In this document: in pieces, positions 7,429 through 16,291 of the stretch
How the letters are laid out: every line of letters begins with the position of its first letter
Position numbering within the stretch: position 1 is the stretch's first letter
Assembly: GCA_030536515.1 (NCBI GenBank)
Contig: JAUNPV010000002.1
Location: 62,001-126,000 of the forward strand
Reading direction: 5' to 3'
From: Eubacteriales bacterium
GTDB taxonomy: Bacteria > Bacillota > Clostridia > Oscillospirales > Oscillospiraceae
Length of the DNA: 64,000 nucleotides
Position numbers and translations under genes: made by a program
Notes under the pieces: generated by a model
The model's database searches: none
Told to the model about the DNA's origin: nothing
The model's input: only the letters and a program-made list of their open reading frames with translations

Positions 7429-7842
7429 TTACATATCAAACGCCGGGTTCATAAAGTAGACGTTCCTCTGGTTCAGCCGCTCCCGCAGAAGCTGGGCGGC
7501 CTCGCCGAACCGCTGGAAGTGGACCACCTCCCGCTCCCGCAGGAACTTGATAGCGTCGTTCACATCCGGGTCGTCAGACAGCCGCAGAATGTTGTCATAG
7601 GTCACCCGGGCCTTCTGCTCCGCCGCCAGGTCCTCCGTCAGGTCCGCCATGGGGTCGCCCTTGACCTGCATAGACGAGGCACTCCACGGAAACCCGGAAG
7701 CCGCCGTGGGGTACACCCCCGTGGTATGGTCCACAAAATAGGGCGCAAACGCCGAATCCTTCACCTGAGAATCCTTCAGATTCCGGGTAAGCTGATGCAC
7801 AATCGCCCCAATCATCTCCAAATGGCCAAGTTCCTCGGTACC
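7429..7842 (-). CDS. cotJC: cotJC, C-terminal part of a split spore coat gene (residues 62-198)
   Basis: Reading on the minus strand from the core at 7833-7844 gives GTEELGHLEMIGAIVHQLTR and continues to FMNPAFDM. This is the C-terminal two thirds of CotJC, a manganese-catalase-like spore coat protein. The ExxH metal-ligand motif (EELGH) starts right at the junction. No start codon with a ribosome site precedes it. Upstream the frame runs only into element DNA until a stop near 7966. The missing N-terminus is at 15657-15842 on the same strand. Joined, the product is about 198 residues, close to normal CotJC length. As it stands this half is not expected to be translated. Confidence 0.92.
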   Translation of the reverse strand, partial: GTEELGHLEMIGAIVHQLTRNLKDSQVKDSAFAPYFVDHTTGVYPTAASGFPWSASSMQVKGDPMADLTEDLAAEQKARVTYDNILRLSDDPDVNDAIKFLREREVVHFQRFGEAAQLLRERLNQRNVYFMNPAFDM

Positions 7843-7844
7843 TA
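7833..7844. other. left recombination core of the cotJC element
   Basis: CCTCGGTACCTA on the plus strand. It matches the right core at 15650-15661 (CCTCTGTACCTA) at 11 of 12 positions. The GTACCTA side is identical in both, so the two-base crossover most likely lies in it (for example at GT or AC). Confidence 0.8.
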
Positions 7845-7930
7845 CATGGGAGCCAAAATGGAACCCGGAGGTTTTGGCTTTCCATAAGCCACTTTGCTGC
7901 CGAGAAAAAAGCTCCTTCGAAATCGAAAAA

Positions 7931-7956
7931 CTGCCGCAGCTCTTTTGCTGCGGCAG
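7931..7956 (-). terminator. terminator facing the cotJC C-terminal half
   Basis: CTGCCGCAGC and GCTGCGGCAG form a perfect 10-bp stem with a 6-base loop, followed on the minus strand by TTTTT. It would stop minus-strand transcripts from the element before they reach the orphan cotJC half. Confidence 0.75.
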
Positions 7957-8044
7957 TACCCATTTCTATTCGTTTTATTCCATGACATCACGGGACAACA
8001 GACAAGCTGGACTTGAATAGAGTTTAGAGAAAGGAGGGCGCGGC

Positions 8045-8299
8045 ATGGCCAGGAAAAAGTTTGCTTCACTGACCGGCATTGACAACAATCGGCCGATTTC
8101 ATCGGAAACCGATGGGGAGTTTTTGTTTCAACTTCAAAAGGGCCTGCTGTTGGCCCTCCGGGATGACGGCCTGCTGACCCAGATGCAGTACCGTTACGCA
8201 GAAGATAAATTGAAGCAGCAGCGAGGAGGGCGAAATGATTCGGGTAGCAAGCTATTGCCGGGTGTCCACAGACAAGGAGGACCAGGCCAATTCCTTTGA
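8045..8299 (+). CDS. small protein overlapping the recombinase, possible directionality factor
   Basis: The 84-residue protein has a good ribosome site (AAGGAGG, 8031-8037) and ATG at 8045. Residues 25-57 (DGEFLFQLQKGLLLALRDDG then MQYRYAEDKL) form an amphipathic helical region resembling the short helical proteins often found directly upstream of clostridial serine recombinases. Its last 65 bases overlap the recombinase start in another frame. Known excision elements of this type need a small recombination directionality factor (SprB in SP-beta), and this is the only candidate here. The function is inferred from position. Confidence 0.6.
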   Translation: MARKKFASLTGIDNNRPISSETDGEFLFQLQKGLLLALRDDGLLTQMQYRYAEDKLKQQRGGRNDSGSKLLPGVHRQGGPGQFL

Positions 8300-9746
8300 A
8301 GCGCAGGTGCGCTATTTTGGAGAGTACATCCAGCGCAAACCGGATTGGGTTCTGGCGGACATCTACGCAGACGAGGGCATCACCGGCACCAGCACCAAAA
8401 AGCGCACTCAGTTCAACCGCATGATGAACGATGCCTACGACGGCAAGTTCGATTTGCTCATCACCAAGGAGGTCAGCCGGTTTTCCAGAAACATCCTGGA
8501 CACCATTTCCTACACCCGGGAGCTGAAAGCTCTGGGCATCCATGTGGTTTTTATGAACGACGGCTTTTCCACCGCCGACCCGGACTCCGAGCTGCGGCTG
8601 TCCATTATGGGCAGCATTGCCCAGGAGGAGAGCCGCAAAACCTCCACCCGGGTCAAATGGGGCCAGACCAGGCAGATGGAGCGGGGGGTGGTCTTTGGCC
8701 GCTCCATGCTGGGCTACGATGTGGCAGGGGGCAGGATGACCGTGAACCCGGAGGGGGCCCAGCTGGTGCGACTGATTTTCCAGAAGTATGCCGTTGAGAA
8801 AATGGGCACCACCAACCTGTGCCGGTATCTGGAGGAGCAGGGCTACGAGACCTTTTCAGGCAACCGCCATTGGAGCAGCAGCCATCTGGTGAAGATTCTG
8901 AAAAATGAAAAGTATGTAGGGGACTTGGTTCAGAAGAAAACCTACACCCCGGACTACCTGACCCACGAGAAAAAGGCCAACCAGGGACAGGTGGAAAAGG
9001 TGATTTTCGAAAATCACCACGAGCCCATCATCGACCGCCCGCTCTGGAACCTGGCTCAGGCAGAGCTGCGGAAAAACGACAAGCACGGCGACTTCCCGGC
9101 AATCCATTCCAACAAGCACCTGTTCTCCGGCCTGATCCGCTGCGGGGCGTGCGGCAGCGGCTTTGTCAGCCGGGTGAAAAAAGCGGGGGACGGCACCACC
9201 TACCGCCGCTGGAGCTGCGCCAAGGCCGCCAGCGGCATAGCGGGGTGTGACGTAGGCCGCCTGCTCCGGGATGACGATGCCCGCAATATGGTAAAGCTCG
9301 CCCTGCAAGCCCTCCAAATGGATGCCCAGTCCATCGCCGCCAACGTGGCCAAACTGGCCGCAGAAGCCATCCAAACAGGGGAGGGGACTGCTCCCGATTC
9401 CCCCCAGCGGCTGAACAATGAAATCGAGAAATGGACAAACAAGAAAATCACCGCCCTGGATAGTTTCCTTGACGGCAACCTTACCAAGGAGGAGCTGAAC
9501 CTGATGAAAGGAAAGTATGACGAAGAAATAGCAGCCCTCCAAACAAGGCTCGCCACGGCAGAAGCACGCCAGCGTGCGGTCTCGAACCCACCCCAGCTCC
9601 GGGAAAAAATCCGGGCACTCCTATCCGGCGAAGCAGAAAGTGAGCCCCTGTACAAATCCATTTTGGACCACATCAGCGTATTCCATGACCGGCATCTGGA
9701 ACTGCGGTTCCAGGGGTTGCCCCATGTATTTCAGTTTTCGGGATAG
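8235..9746 (+). CDS. large serine recombinase of the cotJC element
   Basis: The 503-residue protein has a resolvase catalytic domain (1-150) with nucleophile Ser11 in YCRVS and the Arg-rich FSRNILDT segment. A recombinase domain follows (about 160-265), then a zinc ribbon (about 295-345, CGACGSGF...WSCAK...GCDVG), and a coiled-coil region from about 385 to 445. This is the full set for phage- and skin-type large serine integrases. ATG at 8235 follows GAGGAGGG. It lies 400 bp inside the left core, the usual place for an integrase. It probably both inserted the element and can excise it to restore cotJC. Confidence 0.93.
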   Translation: MIRVASYCRVSTDKEDQANSFEAQVRYFGEYIQRKPDWVLADIYADEGITGTSTKKRTQFNRMMNDAYDGKFDLLITKEVSRFSRNILDTISYTRELKALGIHVVFMNDGFSTADPDSELRLSIMGSIAQEESRKTSTRVKWGQTRQMERGVVFGRSMLGYDVAGGRMTVNPEGAQLVRLIFQKYAVEKMGTTNLCRYLEEQGYETFSGNRHWSSSHLVKILKNEKYVGDLVQKKTYTPDYLTHEKKANQGQVEKVIFENHHEPIIDRPLWNLAQAELRKNDKHGDFPAIHSNKHLFSGLIRCGACGSGFVSRVKKAGDGTTYRRWSCAKAASGIAGCDVGRLLRDDDARNMVKLALQALQMDAQSIAANVAKLAAEAIQTGEGTAPDSPQRLNNEIEKWTNKKITALDSFLDGNLTKEELNLMKGKYDEEIAALQTRLATAEARQRAVSNPPQLREKIRALLSGEAESEPLYKSILDHISVFHDRHLELRFQGLPHVFQFSG

Positions 9747-9935
9747 TGAAGCTCCGACTTAGGGATCAGCCTTACTTGCTTCGATTTCCTTTTCTATCGG
9801 AGTGCGGAAGAAGCAGTTTTCAAGGCTCTTGGCGTGGAGTAAGAGTACAGTTCAATTGAGCCCAACCCCTTATTCCATAATTCAAACTTATCACTTTCAA
9901 AAGAAGAATATCACTTCTAAAAGAAATATGTCATA
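9747..9935. other. non-coding spacer after the recombinase
   Basis: About 190 bases without a supported gene. The right part is AT-rich with a near-direct repeat (TATCACTTTCAAAAGAAGAATATCACTTCTAA region, 9886-9922). No promoter is clear. Confidence 0.5.
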
Positions 9936-9977
9936 AAGCTACGCTGTCCCGGAAAATCTGGGGCAGCGTAGCTTTTT
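9935..9977. terminator. terminator between recombinase and dinB
   Basis: AAAGCTACGCTG with CCC and GGG...CAGCGTAGCTTT forms a long stem, with T-runs on both strands. It serves the convergent recombinase and dinB genes. Confidence 0.8.
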
Positions 9978-11229
9978 ACTGATTCTCTTTTTCATCCGCC
10001 TGTTTCAGCTCCATCTGGGCCTTATGCTTTCTTCCCACATCCGCTGCCTGCATAGAAGTGCCTCTGGAAATGGCGTCGATGCCGTATTTGCTGCGGATGA
10101 CGTCGATGGCCTTGTCCATTTTTCGGGCCTTCTCTCGGCTTTCCTCCGGGAACAGGGAGGCCTGCTCGAAGGTGTCGTCGGTGATGTTGGTTAAGGCGAC
10201 ACCCAGCAGGCGCAGGGGCGTGTGGCCGTCCCAGAGTTCCCGGAAGAGCTGCTTACAGAGGCTGTAGACCTCGGAAGTGATGTCCGTGGGGGTGTCCAGC
10301 TTTTTCTGGTGGGAGCGGGTTTTGAAGTCGTTGCTGCGGATGGTCACGGCCACGCAGGTGGATTTCTTGCCGTCGGAGCGCATCCGTGCGGTGACGCTGT
10401 CGCAGAGGGCCAGGAGGATTTTGTGGGCATCGTCGTAGGTGCGGACATCGTCCGCCAGGGTGGTGGAGTTGCCGTAGCCCTTGGCCTCCTCGGGCTCTTC
10501 CGAGACAGGGGAGTGGTCAATGCCGTTGGCGTAGTTCCAGATGTGCTGGGCCATTTTCACGCCCACCAGCCGCTCCAGGCGCTGCAAATCGGTGTGGGCC
10601 AGATCGCCGATGGTGCGAATCCGGGATTTTTCCAGTTTCTCGGCGGTGGAGCGGCCCACGGTGAACAGCTCCCGGACGGGTAGCGGCCACATCTTCTGGG
10701 AAATCTCGCTGGGGAACAGGGTATGGACCTTGTCGGGCTTTTCAAAGTCGCTGGCCATCTTCGCCAGCAGCTTGTTGGAGCCGATGCCCACATTGACGGT
10801 GAAGCCCAGGGTGTCCCGGATTTTGTCCTTGATTTCGTGGGCGGTTTTCACCGGGTCTGGGTACACCAGATGGGTGCCGCTCATGTCCAGAAAGCACTCG
10901 TCGATGGAGAACTGCTCCACCACTGGGGCGTACGCCCAGCAGATGGCGATGAAGGCCCTGGAATTGCGCTCGTAGAGCTTAAAGTCAGGCTTTGCCAGAA
11001 CCAAATCCGGACATTTCCGCAGAGCCATTCCAACGGGTTCGCCGGTGGTGACATGGAACTTCTTGGCCGGAATGGACTTGGCAAGAATCACCCCCGTGCG
11101 CTTCTCCGGGTCGCCGCCGATGGCAGAGGGAATCAGCCGAATGTCCGGTTCGCCGTTTGCCACCCGCCGTGCCGCCTCCCAAGACAGGAACGCACTGTTC
11201 ACATCCACATGAAATATCAGTCTTTCCAT
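9976..11229 (-). CDS. dinB: Y-family DNA polymerase (DinB/Pol IV-like)
   Basis: The 417-residue translesion polymerase carries the Y-family motifs: FHVDVNSAFLSWE (first catalytic Asp), the finger motif GVILAKSIPAKK, and EQFSIDECFLDMS (catalytic Asp-Glu). Thumb HhH follows (residues 180-225), then a little-finger domain with KGYGNSTTL. The C-terminus (about 385-417) is Lys/Glu/Gln-rich. It copies past lesions with low fidelity. It lies inside the cotJC element, 22 bases after a U32-like gene, with AAAGGAG before the ATG. A polymerase as cargo of a sporulation element is unusual; a chromosomal copy may exist elsewhere. Confidence 0.92.
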   Translation of the reverse strand: MERLIFHVDVNSAFLSWEAARRVANGEPDIRLIPSAIGGDPEKRTGVILAKSIPAKKFHVTTGEPVGMALRKCPDLVLAKPDFKLYERNSRAFIAICWAYAPVVEQFSIDECFLDMSGTHLVYPDPVKTAHEIKDKIRDTLGFTVNVGIGSNKLLAKMASDFEKPDKVHTLFPSEISQKMWPLPVRELFTVGRSTAEKLEKSRIRTIGDLAHTDLQRLERLVGVKMAQHIWNYANGIDHSPVSEEPEEAKGYGNSTTLADDVRTYDDAHKILLALCDSVTARMRSDGKKSTCVAVTIRSNDFKTRSHQKKLDTPTDITSEVYSLCKQLFRELWDGHTPLRLLGVALTNITDDTFEQASLFPEESREKARKMDKAIDVIRSKYGIDAISRGTSMQAADVGRKHKAQMELKQADEKENQ

Positions 11230-11251
11230 TCTGCGCTCCTTTCTGCGGTGA

Positions 11252-12160
11252 TTAGAATAAATCCAGAGAAGAATCCAGATAAATTGCCTCTCTGACCTGC
11301 AAGTGATATTCGGGCCTCGTCATGTAATACAAAATAAATTCCAGAATCAAGGCGCTGCCAAAGCTGCGGCCTTCGATTTTGAACTCTGAAAAGCCCATGG
11401 GCAGGTAGATGTTTTGAATGTCATTGACGCTGATGAAGCCCGGGTTTTGCATGGCTTTGGAAAAGACATAGCCCTCGCTGGCAGTGGGGGAGGCGCATAC
11501 ATGGTCCTGGCAGGGTTCCCCCAGCACCTTTCGGCTGACGTTTTCATAGCATTCCTTCCGGGCGGTGCAGCCAAACCAGCAGCATTCGTTGCAAAGGAAT
11601 TCTGCCTTGGTTTTTTGGGCATCGGACAGGGTATTCAGCTTGGAAAAGTTGCGGTTCAGCCGGAAATCGGGCACCACATAGGAAAATTCCTCCCGGTTCA
11701 GCTCCGCTCTCAGAGCGCCAAAATCGGTAATCACCTTGGTGGTGGAGGAGACAAAATAGAACTCCGGGTAGCGCTCCCTCAGAAATCTAAGCAGCAGGTC
11801 CGAATGGAGGATAATCCCATTGCCGCCTTTGCGGAACAAGTTGCACAGAGCGTTGCACTTCCGGTCGGTCAAATGCTCCGGCCGAAGCAGGGAATTGCTG
11901 AAGGTCAGCCGGGCGGAAACGTCGTACTCCTCCATCAGTGCCGTCACCTCCCCGGCAGAATTGTCCCCAAACCCCACCCGGCCCCCGCCCCAAATGCAGT
12001 CCGCCGGGGCCCCGTAGATGGAGCCGATGCCGCACCAGTCGTAAAAATACTCCCGGTGTTCAAAGAACAGTGGCAGAAACACTCGATAGAATTCGTAAAA
12101 TTCAAAGAGACCGGGGAGGTGGAAATGGGCGATATAGTTTTTGCTGTTTTCTGTGTTCAT
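11252..12160 (-). CDS. U32-like TIM-barrel protein, function unknown
   Basis: The 302-residue protein has a Cys-rich stretch in the third quarter (CNECCWFGC, RKECYENV, then CQDHVC) and a late GFSEFKIEGRSFGS motif. FKIEGR is typical of peptidase U32-type barrels, whose true members act in tRNA or quinone hydroxylation. Similarity is partial, so only the fold class is suggested. Start: the frame is open to a TTG at 12196, but ATG at 12160 with GAGGCG upstream fits better. It is probably co-transcribed with dinB. A short decayed copy of its N-terminal coding sequence lies at 12856-12905. Confidence 0.5.
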   Translation of the reverse strand: MNTENSKNYIAHFHLPGLFEFYEFYRVFLPLFFEHREYFYDWCGIGSIYGAPADCIWGGGRVGFGDNSAGEVTALMEEYDVSARLTFSNSLLRPEHLTDRKCNALCNLFRKGGNGIILHSDLLLRFLRERYPEFYFVSSTTKVITDFGALRAELNREEFSYVVPDFRLNRNFSKLNTLSDAQKTKAEFLCNECCWFGCTARKECYENVSRKVLGEPCQDHVCASPTASEGYVFSKAMQNPGFISVNDIQNIYLPMGFSEFKIEGRSFGSALILEFILYYMTRPEYHLQVREAIYLDSSLDLF

Positions 12161-12225
12161 TGATGAATACGCCTCGGTTTCTATCTCACACGCCAATACT
12201 CAACTTAAAAACTGAATTTTTGAAG

Positions 12226-12753
12226 CTATTTCCATATTTTCGGATATATACTGCCAAAACTGTAAAACAGAAAAAAGGACTGAAATTCCCTTTTTGAAAA
12301 CGCTCCGTTTGTGATGAGTATTTCTTGCACAACACCGTTCAGCTTCATCATATATCCGGTTTCTTTATATTCATTTTGCATATAAAATGATTTACGTCTT
12401 TTTCGTAACGCAATATCTGGGGCGTTATCATTACAAGGCTCAATGGAAATAATTATCTTCTTATCGGGATACATATTTTTAATTTGCTGCAATATGGAAC
12501 TACCATATCCATTTGATTGAAGAGATTTATCTACAGCCAAAAACATCACAAATACGAGATTTCTGTTAGATGCCAAGTATATCAACCCACAGGGAGTTTC
12601 GCTGTCGTAAAAACTAAAAAACCGAGTATTCCATAACTTAGACATTGCCACCATCATAGGAAACGGCATACGCTCTTTTTTTGGGAATGCCTCAAGGTAA
12701 ATGTTTTTTATTTCCGCACTACTTAACTTTACTTTCCGTGTTTCAAGTTTCAC
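12226..12753 (-). CDS. GNAT-like N-acetyltransferase
   Basis: The 175-residue protein is AT-rich compared with its neighbours. The acetyl-CoA site is recognisable as FLAVDKSLQSNGYGSSILQQI (about 70-90), preceded by strands with CGLIYL and LVFVM. The C-terminus (KLNGVVQEIL... FYSFGSIYPKIWK) is hydrophobic and may be altered. The substrate is unknown. Low GC suggests separate acquisition within the element. Confidence 0.7.
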   Translation of the reverse strand: MKLETRKVKLSSAEIKNIYLEAFPKKERMPFPMMVAMSKLWNTRFFSFYDSETPCGLIYLASNRNLVFVMFLAVDKSLQSNGYGSSILQQIKNMYPDKKIIISIEPCNDNAPDIALRKRRKSFYMQNEYKETGYMMKLNGVVQEILITNGAFSKREFQSFFLFYSFGSIYPKIWK

Positions 12754-12855
12754 TCTATTTCCCCTCCTACAACTTCAAAACAATTATCGTCGAGATAGAT
12801 GTATTATGCCTCAACCACTCACCCATTTTAGGTATTGATCTTCTCATTCACCTCT

Positions 12856-12905
12856 GGTGGGAACATCCGATAGAACAGACCGGGAAGATGGAAATGGGCA
12901 ATAGG
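12856..12905 (-). pseudogene. decayed duplicate of the U32-like gene start
   Basis: On the minus strand this stretch reads PIAHFHLPGLFYRMFPPE. The U32-like gene begins ...YIAHFHLPGLFEFYEFYRVFLPLFF, so the fragment is a copy with a 15-base deletion and substitutions. It is direct evidence of a past duplication and loss in the element. The rest of 12754-12933 shows nothing else. Confidence 0.6.
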
Positions 12906-12933
12906 ATTTGTATTCTTCACACTTTTCCCTCCC

Positions 12934-13449
12934 TCATATCTGCTTTGTATATCTTCGAGTTATTATTGCTTTGCCGTTTACAACATTCGGTACTTTATCC
13001 TGTAAAACAAAGCCGTTTTTCTCCATGACTTTTGCTGAACCGTAGTTGTCGTCATCACAGGTAATTAAAACCGTGGTTATTCCTAAATTTTTTGCCTTTT
13101 CCAACGCCAAGCGAAGCATCAAGGTTCCGTATCCTTTCTTCCATTCAGAATAGCGAACACCGTACCCAATATGACCGCCATAGCGTTTAAGATCGTCGGT
13201 TAGTCTATGACGAATGCTTATTTCTCCAATAAAGTAGTTACGATCCTCGTCAACCAACCAGTAGTAATCAGAACCAACTCTGTTTGGCTTCAAATTCCGT
13301 TCATGCCTATAGTTATCGTATTTTTCAAAGATGTTATTAGCTTTTGCATCATCAAAAGCATAGGTGTGTACATCGTTGTGCTTATACTCATCGTAAGCAG
13401 CAATGTATGATTGCAAATACTTTTCACAGGGTTCTACAAGAGCAATCAT
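12934..13449 (-). CDS. GNAT-family N-acetyltransferase
   Basis: The 171-residue protein shows the acetyl-CoA motif GYGVRYSEWKKGYGTLMLRLAL (about 96-118), preceded by FIGEISIRHRLTDDLKRYGGHIG. The IRHRL...GGHIG pattern is shared with the acetyltransferase part of the gene at 25666, so the two are related. The GC content is low. The start ATG has AAAGGAGG upstream. It may modify a small molecule or antibiotic; this is not determinable here. Confidence 0.85.
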   Translation of the reverse strand: MIALVEPCEKYLQSYIAAYDEYKHNDVHTYAFDDAKANNIFEKYDNYRHERNLKPNRVGSDYYWLVDEDRNYFIGEISIRHRLTDDLKRYGGHIGYGVRYSEWKKGYGTLMLRLALEKAKNLGITTVLITCDDDNYGSAKVMEKNGFVLQDKVPNVVNGKAIITRRYTKQI

Positions 13450-13550
13450 TGTCTGACCTCCTTTCCTTGTGTTAGTTCATTCACCTATCGTGTTACTTCA
13501 CTAATTTCAATTAGCACCCAATAGCTTCTACCCTAAAGTGCACACAGTTT

Positions 13551-13620
13551 CCAACATTTCGCCATCCCTCATCCGAACTCGCTTCGCTCGGCCACCTTCC
13601 CCCCGGGGGAAGGTATTGGG
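13551..13620. repeat. dispersed repeat, CCCTCATCCG...CACCTTCCCC type
   Basis: Contains CATCCCTCATCCGA, a palindromic CGCTTCGCTCG core and CACCTTCCCCCCGGGGGAAGG. Elements with this layout are frequent intergenic repeats in gut Firmicutes (from memory, unsearched). It lies just after the stop of the ABC-F gene. Confidence 0.55.
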
Positions 13621-13624
13621 GTGG

Positions 13625-15400
13625 TCACCCATTCTGAGCATCAATCTTCTCTTTCAGCTCCGTCAGATACATCCACCGCTCGGTTTTTTCTTCCAGGACC
13701 TGTTCCAGCCGTTCCTGTTCCTCCTGAAGTTCTTGGAGCTTCACATAGTCGCTGCCGCAGGCATTTTGGGCCGCCTGACACTGGGCGACTTTTTCTTCCA
13801 ACTCGGCAAGGTCGTCGTCGATGGTTTCAAACTCCCGCTGCTCCTTGTAGGAGAATTTCAGCTTCTTTTCCCGGGGCCGTTCCTGGACCGTCTTGGGCTT
13901 CTCGGCCTTGACGGGCGCTTCCTCGGCCCGGCGTTTTTTCTGCCAGTCTGACCAGTTGCCGGTGTAGCGGATGACCTCGCCCTCCCGGACCTCGAAGATG
14001 CTTTCCGCCAGCTTGTCCAGGAAGAAGCGGTCGTGGGAGACAATCAGAATGGGGCCGGGGAAGCCTTGCAAATAGTCCTCCAGAATGGACAGGGTCATCA
14101 CATCGAGGTCATTGGTAGGCTCGTCCAGAAGCAGCACATTGGGGGCCTCCATGAGGACGGACAGCAGATACAGCCGCCGCCGCTCGCCGCCGGACAGCCG
14201 CCCGATGGCCACGGATTGGAGGTCCTTGGGAAACAGGAACCGCTCCATCATCTGGCTGGCCGAGAAGGTGCCCTCGTCAGTTTTGACTTCCTCGGCAATG
14301 TCGTGGATGAAGTCGTAGACCCGCTGATTCAGGTCCAGCTCCCGGCCCTCCTGGGAGAAGTGGCCGATTTTCACGGTGGTGCCCATGTCCACGGTGCCGG
14401 AATCGGGAGCCAGCTCCCCGGCAATCAGATGGAGCAGGGTGGACTTGCCGGCACCGTTGCGGCCTACAATGCCGATGCGGTCGGTGCGCAGAAGGTTGTA
14501 GGAGAAATTTTGAATAATGGGACTGCCGTTAAAGGCCTTGGAAACGTGGTCAAGCTCGATGATTTTCCTGCCCAGCCGGCTGGATGAGGCGGACAGCTGT
14601 AGGGAATCGTCGGTCTCGGGGGCATCCTGATTCAGAAGGCTTTCGTACCGCTGGATGCGCTCCTTGGACTTGGTGGTCCGGGCCTGACAGCCACGCATAA
14701 TCCACTCCCGCTCCACCCGGAGGATGGACTGGCGCTTGCGCTCACTGGCTTCCGCCATCTCCGCCCGCTGCTCCTTCAGCTCCAGGTATTTGGAATAGTT
14801 GGCCTCATAGTGATACAGCTTGCCCCGGGACAGCTCAGTGATGTGGTTCACCACCCGCTCCAAAAAGTAGCGGTCGTGGGTGACCATCACCAGCCCGCCC
14901 TTGAACCGGCGGAGCCAGTCCTCCAGCCATGCCACCATTTCGCTGTCCAGGTGGTTGGTGGGCTCGTCCAGAATCAGCACATCCGCCGGGTGAATCAGTG
15001 CCGCCGCCAGCGCCACCCGCTTCCGTTGGCCGCCAGAGAGGGTACCGATTTTCTGGTCAAAATCAGACAAGCCGAGCCTCATCAGCATGGACTTGGCCTC
15101 ATATTCGTTCAGAGTTCGGAACTCAGCAGGGAAGTGGAGAAACACCTGCTGCAACACCGTGGCCTCGTCGTCCATGTCCGGATTCTGAGACAGCAGGCTC
15201 ACCTGCACGTTAGGATTCCGGGCAATCCGGCCCCTGTCTGCCTCAATGGTCCCCGCCAGCACTTTCAAGAAAGTGGACTTGCCGGTGCCGTTGATACCGA
15301 TGACGCCTGTCTTATCGCCCTCGTTCAAATAAAAATTCACATCATCCAGCAGCTGCCGGCTGCCAAAGTTGATGGAAAGATGTTCCGCAGATAGAAGCAT
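13625..15400 (-). CDS. ABC-F ATPase (Uup/EttA type)
   Basis: The 591-residue soluble protein has two ABC domains and no membrane part. Walker A motifs are GINGTGKST (about 35-43) and GRNGAGKST (about 317). Signatures are LSGGQ and LSGGE, and both Walker B motifs read LLDEPTNDL or LILDEPTNHL. The interdomain linker is long and charged, and a C-terminal coiled coil (about 515-591) is present, as in Uup. ABC-F proteins act on the ribosome, resolving stalls or protecting it from antibiotics. The coiled coil favours a Uup-like housekeeping type over a resistance type. It is the last gene inside the element. Confidence 0.9.
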   Translation of the reverse strand: MLLSAEHLSINFGSRQLLDDVNFYLNEGDKTGVIGINGTGKSTFLKVLAGTIEADRGRIARNPNVQVSLLSQNPDMDDEATVLQQVFLHFPAEFRTLNEYEAKSMLMRLGLSDFDQKIGTLSGGQRKRVALAAALIHPADVLILDEPTNHLDSEMVAWLEDWLRRFKGGLVMVTHDRYFLERVVNHITELSRGKLYHYEANYSKYLELKEQRAEMAEASERKRQSILRVEREWIMRGCQARTTKSKERIQRYESLLNQDAPETDDSLQLSASSSRLGRKIIELDHVSKAFNGSPIIQNFSYNLLRTDRIGIVGRNGAGKSTLLHLIAGELAPDSGTVDMGTTVKIGHFSQEGRELDLNQRVYDFIHDIAEEVKTDEGTFSASQMMERFLFPKDLQSVAIGRLSGGERRRLYLLSVLMEAPNVLLLDEPTNDLDVMTLSILEDYLQGFPGPILIVSHDRFFLDKLAESIFEVREGEVIRYTGNWSDWQKKRRAEEAPVKAEKPKTVQERPREKKLKFSYKEQREFETIDDDLAELEEKVAQCQAAQNACGSDYVKLQELQEEQERLEQVLEEKTERWMYLTELKEKIDAQNG

Positions 15401-15649
15401 GGGTTTCCTCCTGTGTGTGACGCAATTTTAGTTTATTATAGCACAGGGATGGCGATTTGGCTATATTTAGAGAACAAAAAACTGATTGCTATGCTTCTTT
15501 GGAAACATAGCAATCTCTCAAAGAACCTTCTGATGCCTGAGCACTGTATGCACATTTCTGCTCCGAAATCAATATCTCGTCACGGTTCGTCCTGGATTCC
15601 ATGGAACAGATCCGCTTCTGTGAGGGTAATTGGGGGTGTCAAATTGACC
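15401..15649. other. element right-end spacer
   Basis: No gene is supported. On the minus strand a TATAAT (15435-15440) upstream of the ABC-F gene may be its -10 box, but no clear -35 was found. Near the core an imperfect inverted repeat (GGGGTCAA...TTGACACCCC, about 15632-15651) could be part of the recombinase attachment site. Confidence 0.4.
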
Positions 15650-15842
15650 CCTCTGTACCTATATCGGTTAACAGACCCTTCAAATCATCAAAGGGCATGG
15701 CATAGCGTTGGGAGAGGTAGCGCAGGGAGGCGCCCAGTTCGCCGTCGGGGCCGCCGTATTGGGAGATGATGATGGCGGCCAGGCGGGGGTTTGGGGTGGC
15801 GATTTTCACCGGGTATTGGAGCTTTTTATCATAGACAAACAT
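15639..15842 (-). CDS. cotJC: cotJC, N-terminal part of a split spore coat gene
   Basis: The frame begins MFVYDKKLQYPVKIATPNPR and shows the CotJC signature IISQYGGPDGELGASLRYLSQRY. At the core the gene reads TDIGTE, then leaves into element sequence and stops after Gly-Ser-Ile (67 residues). ATG at 15842 is two bases after the cotJA-cotJB stop, with AAGGAGG inside that gene's end. The start and promoter are intact, so only a short truncated peptide can be made unless the element is excised. The continuation is at 7429-7842. Confidence 0.93.
   Translation of the reverse strand: MFVYDKKLQYPVKIATPNPRLAAIIISQYGGPDGELGASLRYLSQRYAMPFDDLKGLLTDIGTEGSI
15650..15661. other. right recombination core of the cotJC element
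   Basis: CCTCTGTACCTA on the plus strand, matching 7833-7844 with one mismatch (T for G at the fifth base). On the minus strand the core encodes the Ile-Gly-Thr-Glu of CotJC. Confidence 0.8.
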
Positions 15843-15844
15843 GG

Positions 15845-16291
15845 TTACGCCTCCTTGTTCCGTTCAAATTCCCAGGGCCAGGGGTCATCCAGCCATTGGT
15901 ACCGCTCGCCCTCGGTGGGGGACATATGATTCAGGGGGCCGCAGCTGTCGTTATATTCGTCCCGGAGCTTCCGGTACATCTGCTGATAGGTCCGGTACAG
16001 CTCCAGGGCCTCCCGGTCGTTTCTGTGGGTGTCCAGGTACAGCGCCAGCTCCTGGACCGCAAAGCCCAGAGCCTGCAGCTCCGTCATGGGGGTGACATTT
16101 CGCTCCTTCTTGTTGACCATGCCCATAAAGGGCAGGTCCAGTCCGGGAAACATGGTGCCCCGGACCAGGCCTTTCCTGGCCTCGTATCGGGGGGGATTTT
16201 CCAGCTGGAAGGGGACATATGGATTGGCCAGCGGCGCCATGGCCGGAAGCCTGCCCTCCCAGGCGCGTTGTTCGTTGTTGGGATTATCCAA
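15845..16291 (-). CDS. CotJA-CotJB fusion, spore coat assembly protein
   Basis: The 148-residue protein combines two usually separate coat proteins. Residues 18-60 match CotJA (LANPYVPFQ, then RGTMFPGLDLPFMGM). Residues 66-142 match CotJB (MTELQALGFAVQELALYLDTH, then YQWLDDPWPWEF). No stop or start interrupts the join. The TTG start at 16291 is eight bases after AAGGAGG. CotJA, CotJB and CotJC are packaged together in the inner coat of B. subtilis spores. Gene order cotJA-cotJB-cotJC is kept, with cotJC two bases downstream. Confidence 0.85.
   Translation of the reverse strand: MDNPNNEQRAWEGRLPAMAPLANPYVPFQLENPPRYEARKGLVRGTMFPGLDLPFMGMVNKKERNVTPMTELQALGFAVQELALYLDTHRNDREALELYRTYQQMYRKLRDEYNDSCGPLNHMSPTEGERYQWLDDPWPWEFERNKEA

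Follow-up and report, generated by a model that had tools for sequence, protein, structure and literature searches.

We analysed a 64,000-nucleotide stretch of an Eubacteriales bacterium of the Oscillospiraceae (assembly GCA_030536515.1, contig JAUNPV010000002.1, positions 62,001 to 126,000; hereafter the window), in which the spore coat gene cotJC lies in two pieces separated by an element carrying its own large serine recombinase. The original prediction, made from the letters of the window, had described two same-strand cotJC halves 7.8 kb apart, each ending at a shared core of 11/12 bp, and this observation was confirmed, with an offset between the cores of exactly 7,817 bp. The features of the split gene are as follows:

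15651..15842, minus strand: N-terminal piece of cotJC, codons 1-64 (PF05067 Mn_catalase positions 1-65)
about 7429..7845, minus strand: C-terminal piece of cotJC, codons about 61-198 (PF05067 positions 61-198, 103.6 bits in the whole-genome search), with no start codon in frame before E65
15650..15661, no strand: N-side copy of the core, sharing 11/12 bases with 7833-7844 at an offset of 7817
7833..7844, no strand: core at the C-side junction, 11/12 identical to 15650-15661
7837..15653, no strand: intervening element of 7,817 bp, its ends uncertain within the core (core offset and computed joins)
8235..9746, plus strand: large serine recombinase of 503 residues (Resolvase 109, Recombinase 88 and Zn_ribbon_recom 36 bits)

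Both cotJC pieces matched the Pfam family PF05067 Mn_catalase (75.5 and 87.3 bits; cut-off 27). Among the 25 offsets tested (7805-7829), 7817 was the only one with a match of at least 10 bases and at most one mismatch. Deleting 7,817 bp gave the same protein of 198 residues, carrying DIGTEELGHLEM, at 13 consecutive cut points (7832-7844), which bears out the in-frame joining that had been predicted. A second intact cotJC, set beforehand as counting against the prediction, was not found, since a search of the entire genome (2.63 Mb in 48 contigs; completeness 98%) recovered no PF05067 match besides the two pieces. Between the upstream stop and E65 of the C-terminal piece in the window, no in-frame start codon was found.

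Comparison of the fetched loci, together with computed joins, placed the breaks in cotJC at four fixed sites, given here in CotJC numbering:

Site D, about residues 29-32: core TATGGTGGxCC, encoding YGGP next to E35
Site C, residues 51-53: core TTCGAxGA
Site A, the site used in the window, residues 61-65: core GGTACAGA, encoding GTEE with E65
Site B, residues 133-136: core GCAGCAGA, encoding AAEQ with E136

In the first join set, 13 of 15 joins gave exactly 198 residues; the other two, G051 and G076, whose pieces lie on different contigs, gave 204 and 207 because the core was not resolved. A larger set attempted 68 junctions, of which G174 (site B) gave no join. Clearly wrong joins (G216, G348, the second of G117, the first of G401, and G012, which had joined well in the first set) were not used for the cores, nor were the site-B joins of G282, G284, G332, G364 and G384, which were off by one or a few residues. 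Joins were chosen by likeness to a reference CotJC and are biased towards CotJC, and the exact core was as short as 3 bases in some of them (e.g. G018, G053). An intact orthologue from the genus matches the structures 1jku and 1o9i by sequence and carries E35, E65, H68, E136 and H169. This set would fit the Mn-catalase ligands, which we take to be Glu35, Glu66, His69, Glu148 and His181 of the Lactobacillus enzyme. If E35, E65 and E136 are read as ligands, the codon of a glutamate ligand falls within each of sites A and B and next to site D.

The two inner flanks of the element would form an imperfect dyad in the attachment site deduced for its circular form (attP):

15632..15649, no strand: N-side element arm, one half of the dyad (by dyad match count)
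7848..7866, no strand: C-side element arm, the other half (by dyad match count)

Among the 19 readable elements of the 20 of window type, the arms had a mean of 15.9 matches, against 12.0 with one arm shuffled, and the highest of 500 shuffled means was 13.05. The window element had 17 matches, and three of the 19 scored 12 or less (G294, G358, G148).

Interruption of cotJC recurs widely, and its frequency formed no part of the original prediction. In the genus, a Mn_catalase match was found in 78/101 genomes, many as complementary pieces. The proposed search of related genomes for an unbroken cotJC did recover intact copies, and a cotJA/JB match was present at 23/23 of the intact genus loci checked. 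We then turned to 399 genomes from the window's family, almost all with a completeness of 90% or more; any Mn_catalase match was present in 357 of them. Pieces were listed for 111 genomes with a weak best match (55 + 56), and complete, non-contiguous piece sets were counted by hand in at least 102 of the 399, being 47 + 47 listed genomes and eight genus members (G000, G005, G012, G014, G018, G054, G059, G084). The count is a lower bound because genomes with an intact paralogue were mostly unscreened for pieces. It leaves out one contiguous frame break (G463) and five very weak or borderline matches (G102, G181, G344, G470, G477), and a further 19 genomes had only some of the pieces (hand count). 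Pieces were often on different contigs. Ten family genomes had three pieces (G117, G119, G174, G193, G197, G235, G316, G360, G384, G401) and two had four (G347, G382). All three pieces of G197 were on one contig, with elements of 3,713 and 5,761 bp; in G382 three pieces followed one another in order along a single contig, separated by elements of 3,964 and 4,341 bp, and a different contig carried the fourth.

In the class, a Mn_catalase match was found in 238/392 genomes; ten of the sample with only a very weak match, and those with a best E of about 1e-48 to 1e-44, were left out of the listing of pieces. Outside the window's family, 30 of 52 weak cases were complete non-contiguous sets (hand count), four were contiguous frame breaks (G532, G686, G671, G723) and 18 were incomplete or ambiguous; the middle piece of G730 was located in a further search. 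The split gene was also present in the single-contig genomes G167 and G332 (window's family), G587, G808 and G630, and in G587 and G808, from another family, three pieces lie on one strand in gene order. As a control, spoIVA (PF09547) was matched in 179/200 family genomes and was broken in six: a contiguous frame break in G132, breaks at contig ends in G116 and G125, and apparently real splits in G208, G234 and G293. The pieces of spoIVA in G293 (positions 1-150 and 145-237) are 252 kb apart on one strand (C20:236830-237279 and 489491-489769), while those of G208 are on C7/C129 and those of G234 on C56/C105. sigK (TIGR02846) was not used as a second control, being uninformative because related sigma factors match.

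Two further loci were recorded alongside these counts. An uncultured Oscillibacter metagenome contig (L183) has three ordered cotJC pieces, at 11740-11507, 8061-7834 and 3302-3111, broken at A and B. In G014, besides the two pieces, a stop-bearing stretch resembling the N-terminus precedes the C-piece (L075 2465-1965) and a third short match (positions 1-32) is on another contig (C102:3401-3496); these are perhaps left over from a second copy or from some earlier event.

Recombinases sort by the site at which they are found. In the fetched loci 83 open reading frames (ORFs) matched the window recombinase, and the nearest cotJC junction was computed where present; eight were dropped from the tree as fragments, as lying outside an element or for want of a close link to any cotJC piece. 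Hand assignment was used for 14 site labels, three of them on dropped rows. In the resulting tree of 75 recombinases, sites B (21), D (12) and C (2) are each represented by a single clade with full support. Site-A recombinases form two clades, one of 33 that includes the window (support 100/100) and one of six, plus one long-branched row, which is the second recombinase of a G382 element. The site label changes 3 times on the tree, against 30.9 in shuffles. Members of the second site-A clade, at about residues 63-65, include L093 (G382), L145 (G401), L106 (G197), L127 (G122) and L128 (G293), with relatives in other families of the class (L327, L328, L331, L336). This clade inserts at nearly the position of the first, a convergence of two lineages on a single site. 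Elements elsewhere in the class mostly had their best match in the clade of their own site, while a few near site D matched none well. In three loci from other families (L324, L326, L340), where the gene is in three pieces, the first two pieces have nearby a recombinase with only about 30% likeness to those labelled by site; this is perhaps another site-D lineage. The recombinases of G332/G282 and of G056/G301 are closer to each other than the host genes are, which fits transfer between genera. XisF, the recombinase of the fdxN element, acts in a terminal cell in heterocyst cyanobacteria, and the window recombinase does not belong to its family, since it scored 120.8 bits on the NCBIfam model NF041201 (fdxN element-excision recombinase), whose cut-off is 375.

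Named genome-contig records were scanned with an alignment of 18 relatives, a query with a single recombinase having confirmed nothing. At least 577 relatives of the window recombinase were matched. Of the best 80, 74 had in their locus a cotJC fragment with its break at site A, under a rule that allowed alignments to run slightly past the break, and for 55/80 the distance was within 500 bp. Six loci had none (L153, L164, L177, L192, L202, L208); in five of these the contig is shorter than 8 kb or the recombinase starts near a contig end, and long flanks on both sides are present only in L208. Named carriers include isolates of Pseudoflavonifractor, Flavonifractor, Oscillibacter and Ructibacterium, the cultured ones including Flavonifractor sp. 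An10, Pseudoflavonifractor capillosus An386a and Ructibacterium gallinarum DSM 107454; some of the named loci are evidently the same contigs as loci of the fetched sample, so that the two sets overlap. In IMG/VR, a cotJC fragment broken at site A was found in 10/80 loci, and for the site-B recombinase a cotJC fragment was found in 6/11 viral loci. Two faecal-virome records, MT839280.1 (47.6%) and MT837874.1 (40.1%), have a related recombinase adjoining a cotJC piece, and these small human-faecal 'phage' records may be fragments of such elements.

The split pieces appear to have remained under purifying selection. Among 20 split genus members, for which one or both pieces were used and junction codons omitted, no stop codons were found in the pieces. 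The ratio of nonsynonymous to synonymous changes per site (pN/pS) between the pieces and the nearest intact copy was 0.004-0.152, against an intact-intact median of 0.132 (20 copies, 190 pairs) at which synonymous sites are near saturation. Additionally, 11 pairs of split loci were compared, with indel-bearing pieces dropped in four pairs. G135 and G227 align over 7,912 of 8,001 bp, element included, and differ by 44 synonymous and 1 nonsynonymous changes in 171 cotJC codons; this pair most simply inherited the split from a common source, so that the protein would have been selected while the gene was split. G208/G267 (57.5 synonymous, 6.5 nonsynonymous) and G194/G144 (83.5 and 7.5) have elements that are less alike, and selection in the split state is less sure for them. 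The highest ratios among the pairs were 0.214 (G392/G133) and 0.211 (G056/G301).

A small ORF at the start of the recombinase gene may take part in its control, and motifs were read before it and before the cotJ genes, whose fused form in the window had not been remarked on in the original prediction:

8045..8299, plus strand: small protein of 84 residues overlapping the recombinase start, by its position a candidate recombination directionality factor (no Pfam or NCBIfam match)
15845..16291, minus strand: fused cotJA-cotJB gene, 148 residues, upstream of cotJC (Pfam CotJA 51.1 bits, residues 20-55; CotJB 94.1 bits, residues 69-141)

A like-placed small ORF, read by eye, precedes 15/18 recombinases of the first site-A clade (A1), ending 72 bp short in one of them, and tblastn gave matches at 53-60% in six relatives. 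The promoter scan covered 14 of the 15 relatives with the small ORF, including two without a linked cotJC piece. In 10/14, a CATA box resembling the one before the cotJ operon occurs 20-24 bp upstream of the small ORF, with p <0.05 in 6/14 (Fisher p 2e-6, the relatives not being independent). Of the sigma-E-like promoter predicted before the start of cotJC, the motif match stands, as the CATAGACTG box about 40 bp upstream of the cotJA/JB start, and the claim does not extend beyond that match. A like box occurs in 36 other distinct sequences of the genus, which were themselves used to build the motif.

We regard insertion of an element in cotJC, with excision during sporulation restoring CotJC, as with good confidence the best explanation of these results. 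According to this model, a mobile element with its own large serine recombinase would integrate at a fixed bacterial attachment site (attB), the DIGTEE codons around the metal-binding Glu65/His68 of CotJC, leaving cotJC split and presumably silent in growing cells. In sporulating cells the recombinase, acting most likely in the mother cell, would recombine the two cores, removing the 7,817-bp circle and restoring the 198-residue CotJC; it would probably be helped by a directionality factor, perhaps the small coupled ORF. The forespore chromosome would retain the element, so that inheritance would be unharmed. Anatomy, site, frame, lineage, recurrence, selection and the signs that elements pass between genera come from the comparisons above, unlike excision, its timing, the cell type and the directionality factor, which we infer. 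Excision in the mother cell is suggested by analogy with the skin, SP-beta and gin elements described below and gains strength from the selection on the split gene. The original prediction held that cotJC can work only once the element has been excised, and this claim finds support in the restored frame, the single copy, the selection on the pieces, the startless C-piece and the many relatives interrupted at this and other cotJC sites. We also think it likely, if with less assurance, that cotJC in Clostridia is a gene in pieces at the level of DNA, with four docking sites, each with its own serine-recombinase lineages moving between genera, and with up to three excisions in a dying mother cell for one enzyme. 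Where three elements sit in one gene at once, up to three site-specific excisions would all have to succeed.

Several observations weigh against excision during sporulation as the explanation. The median pN/pS of the split pieces to all 20 intact copies was 0.084-0.225, in part above the intact level, and purifying selection seen against intact copies could predate the insertion. Only jointly inherited pairs are informative about selection in the split state, which is clearest in G135/G227 alone, and independent insertion of related elements into sister species is still conceivable. No cotJC fragment was found at 13 IMG/VR relatives of at least 42% identity, where the contig or locus mostly ends nearby. 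The small ORF is absent before 3/18 of the A1 recombinases and is perhaps the directionality factor, a candidate by position only, and the region upstream of it in the window has an unconvincing -10 box (score -3.1, p 0.67). The gene downstream of cotJC in the window adjoins cotJC in 0/23 intact relatives, so the empty site was matched on its upstream side only. Moreover, pieces lie on opposite strands of one contig in G460 (C1:2068731 and 2079104), G385 (C1), G193 (C1) and G863 (C1). This is unexplained by simple excision; it looks like an inversion produced by recombination between the attachment sites of different elements, or like an assembly error.

Ordinary integration into a conserved but dispensable gene, with cotJC lost and excision occasional and unregulated, is an unlikely explanation, though it is the strongest of the alternatives. 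It would account for the 19 family genomes with only some pieces, and Bacillus subtilis mutants without this coat protein reportedly have no apparent defect (PMC12122855). Against this, the pieces keep their frame and protein sequence at about the level of the intact gene, the split locus whose joint inheritance is clearest shows almost no nonsynonymous change, and interruption recurs in at least 102/399 genomes, compared with about 3/200 for spoIVA. A second alternative, in which separately translated pieces would assemble into a working CotJC with the element still in place, agrees with both pieces being open and conserved, but we consider it very improbable. A start codon with a Shine-Dalgarno pattern before E65 was found in 0/30 site-A C-pieces, and 12/30, including that of the window, have no start codon before E65 at all, so that separate translation is unlikely; moreover, some genes are cut into three or four pieces, with breaks at or next to the metal ligands. 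An assembly or binning artefact joining unrelated sequence can be dismissed almost entirely, since, although many genomes are fragmented drafts and pieces sometimes lie on separate contigs or on opposite strands, the split is present in five single-contig genomes, the cores recur, the recombinases sort by site and cultured isolates are among the named loci.

Excision during sporulation would place the window element among the sporulation gene-intervening elements, whose features it shares: insertion in a spore gene, a direct core repeat with in-frame restoration, and an encoded serine recombinase of predicted activity. The literature describes several of these. The skin element in sigK of B. 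subtilis and Clostridioides difficile is a serine-recombinase element whose excision restores the gene (PMC5025042, PMC10747680). Like the window element it interrupts a spore gene, but the gene is another one and skin is prophage-like, whereas cotJC offers four sites and can hold up to three elements together. In the window element, Pfam and NCBIfam revealed no phage structural domain, PHROGs having been used on other elements; by the same two databases the element has no structural or packaging genes and is not classed as a prophage. Eight ORFs of large site-B elements searched in PHROGs matched kinase-like families, families of no assigned function or nothing, with no structural genes among them. 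Excision of SP-beta from spsM restores a spore-envelope gene in B. subtilis (PMC4191935); unlike the cotJC elements, it is an active temperate phage, with a single site in one gene. Nearest in kind is gin in gerE of Bacillus cereus ATCC10987, a non-phage element with a 9-bp core, a serine recombinase and an additional factor, which is 28.6 kb long, has three recombinases and is known from some B. cereus and B. toyonensis strains (PMC5595907). It shares the non-phage nature, short core and serine recombinase of the cotJC element and differs in gene, size and number of recombinases. Also described are yin in yabG (Clostridium botulinum V73) and vfbin in spoVFB (Bacillus weihenstephanensis) (PMC10747680). 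yin is reported as unique to one strain in the same source, whereas the cotJC interruption recurs in many genera. The phi027 prophage of C. difficile R20291 has its attachment site beside a cotJC paralogue, the gene being downstream of attR (PMC11222575, PMC12122855); that cotJC-like gene is adjoined and, as described, not split, whereas cotJC itself is split in the window.

An element intervening in cotJC was not found in a search of open-access literature, which did not extend to subscription papers or preprints; phi027 was the nearest case. The kind is already known, namely a spore gene restored by excision; new as far as this search reaches are the gene, the four sites with their own recombinase lineages, the multiple elements per gene and the high frequency. 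Published spore intervening elements (in sigK, spsM, spoVFB, gerE and yabG) look scattered, while cotJC is a recurrent target in a large family of spore formers. If the proposed excision is true, it would amount to DNA splicing of a protein gene, stabilised by the disposability of the mother cell, and it raises the testable question of whether mobile DNA finds shelter in genes that only a terminally differentiating bacterial cell needs. The elements also offer a resource of dozens of recombinases with defined attB sites, and it is suggested that cotJC, and perhaps other spore genes, will be mistaken for pseudogenes in many gut genomes.

Besides the recombinase, the window element has six ORFs, encoding a polymerase, two GNATs, an ABC-F protein and two proteins of no matched family. 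From the C-piece inward their order is the ORF for 84 residues, the recombinase and then, on the other strand, the polymerase, the 314-residue protein, the two GNATs and the ABC-F protein. The cargo genes are:

9976..11229, minus strand: Y-family DNA polymerase, DinB/UmuC-like (IMS domains)
11252..12196, minus strand: protein of 314 residues without a Pfam or NCBIfam match
12226..12753, minus strand: GNAT acetyltransferase (PF00583, 25.0 bits; cut-off 20.7)
12934..13449, minus strand: GNAT acetyltransferase (PF13302, 64.7 bits)
13625..15400, minus strand: ABC-F ATPase of 591 residues (Pfam ABC_tran; NCBIfam NF000355 ribosomal protection-like ABC-F, 431 bits; cut-off 380)

Among the 25 NCBIfam matches of the ABC-F protein listed, of 206, no specific resistance model reaches its cut-off. 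The element has a GC content of 52.7%, compared with 57.5% in the remainder of the window.

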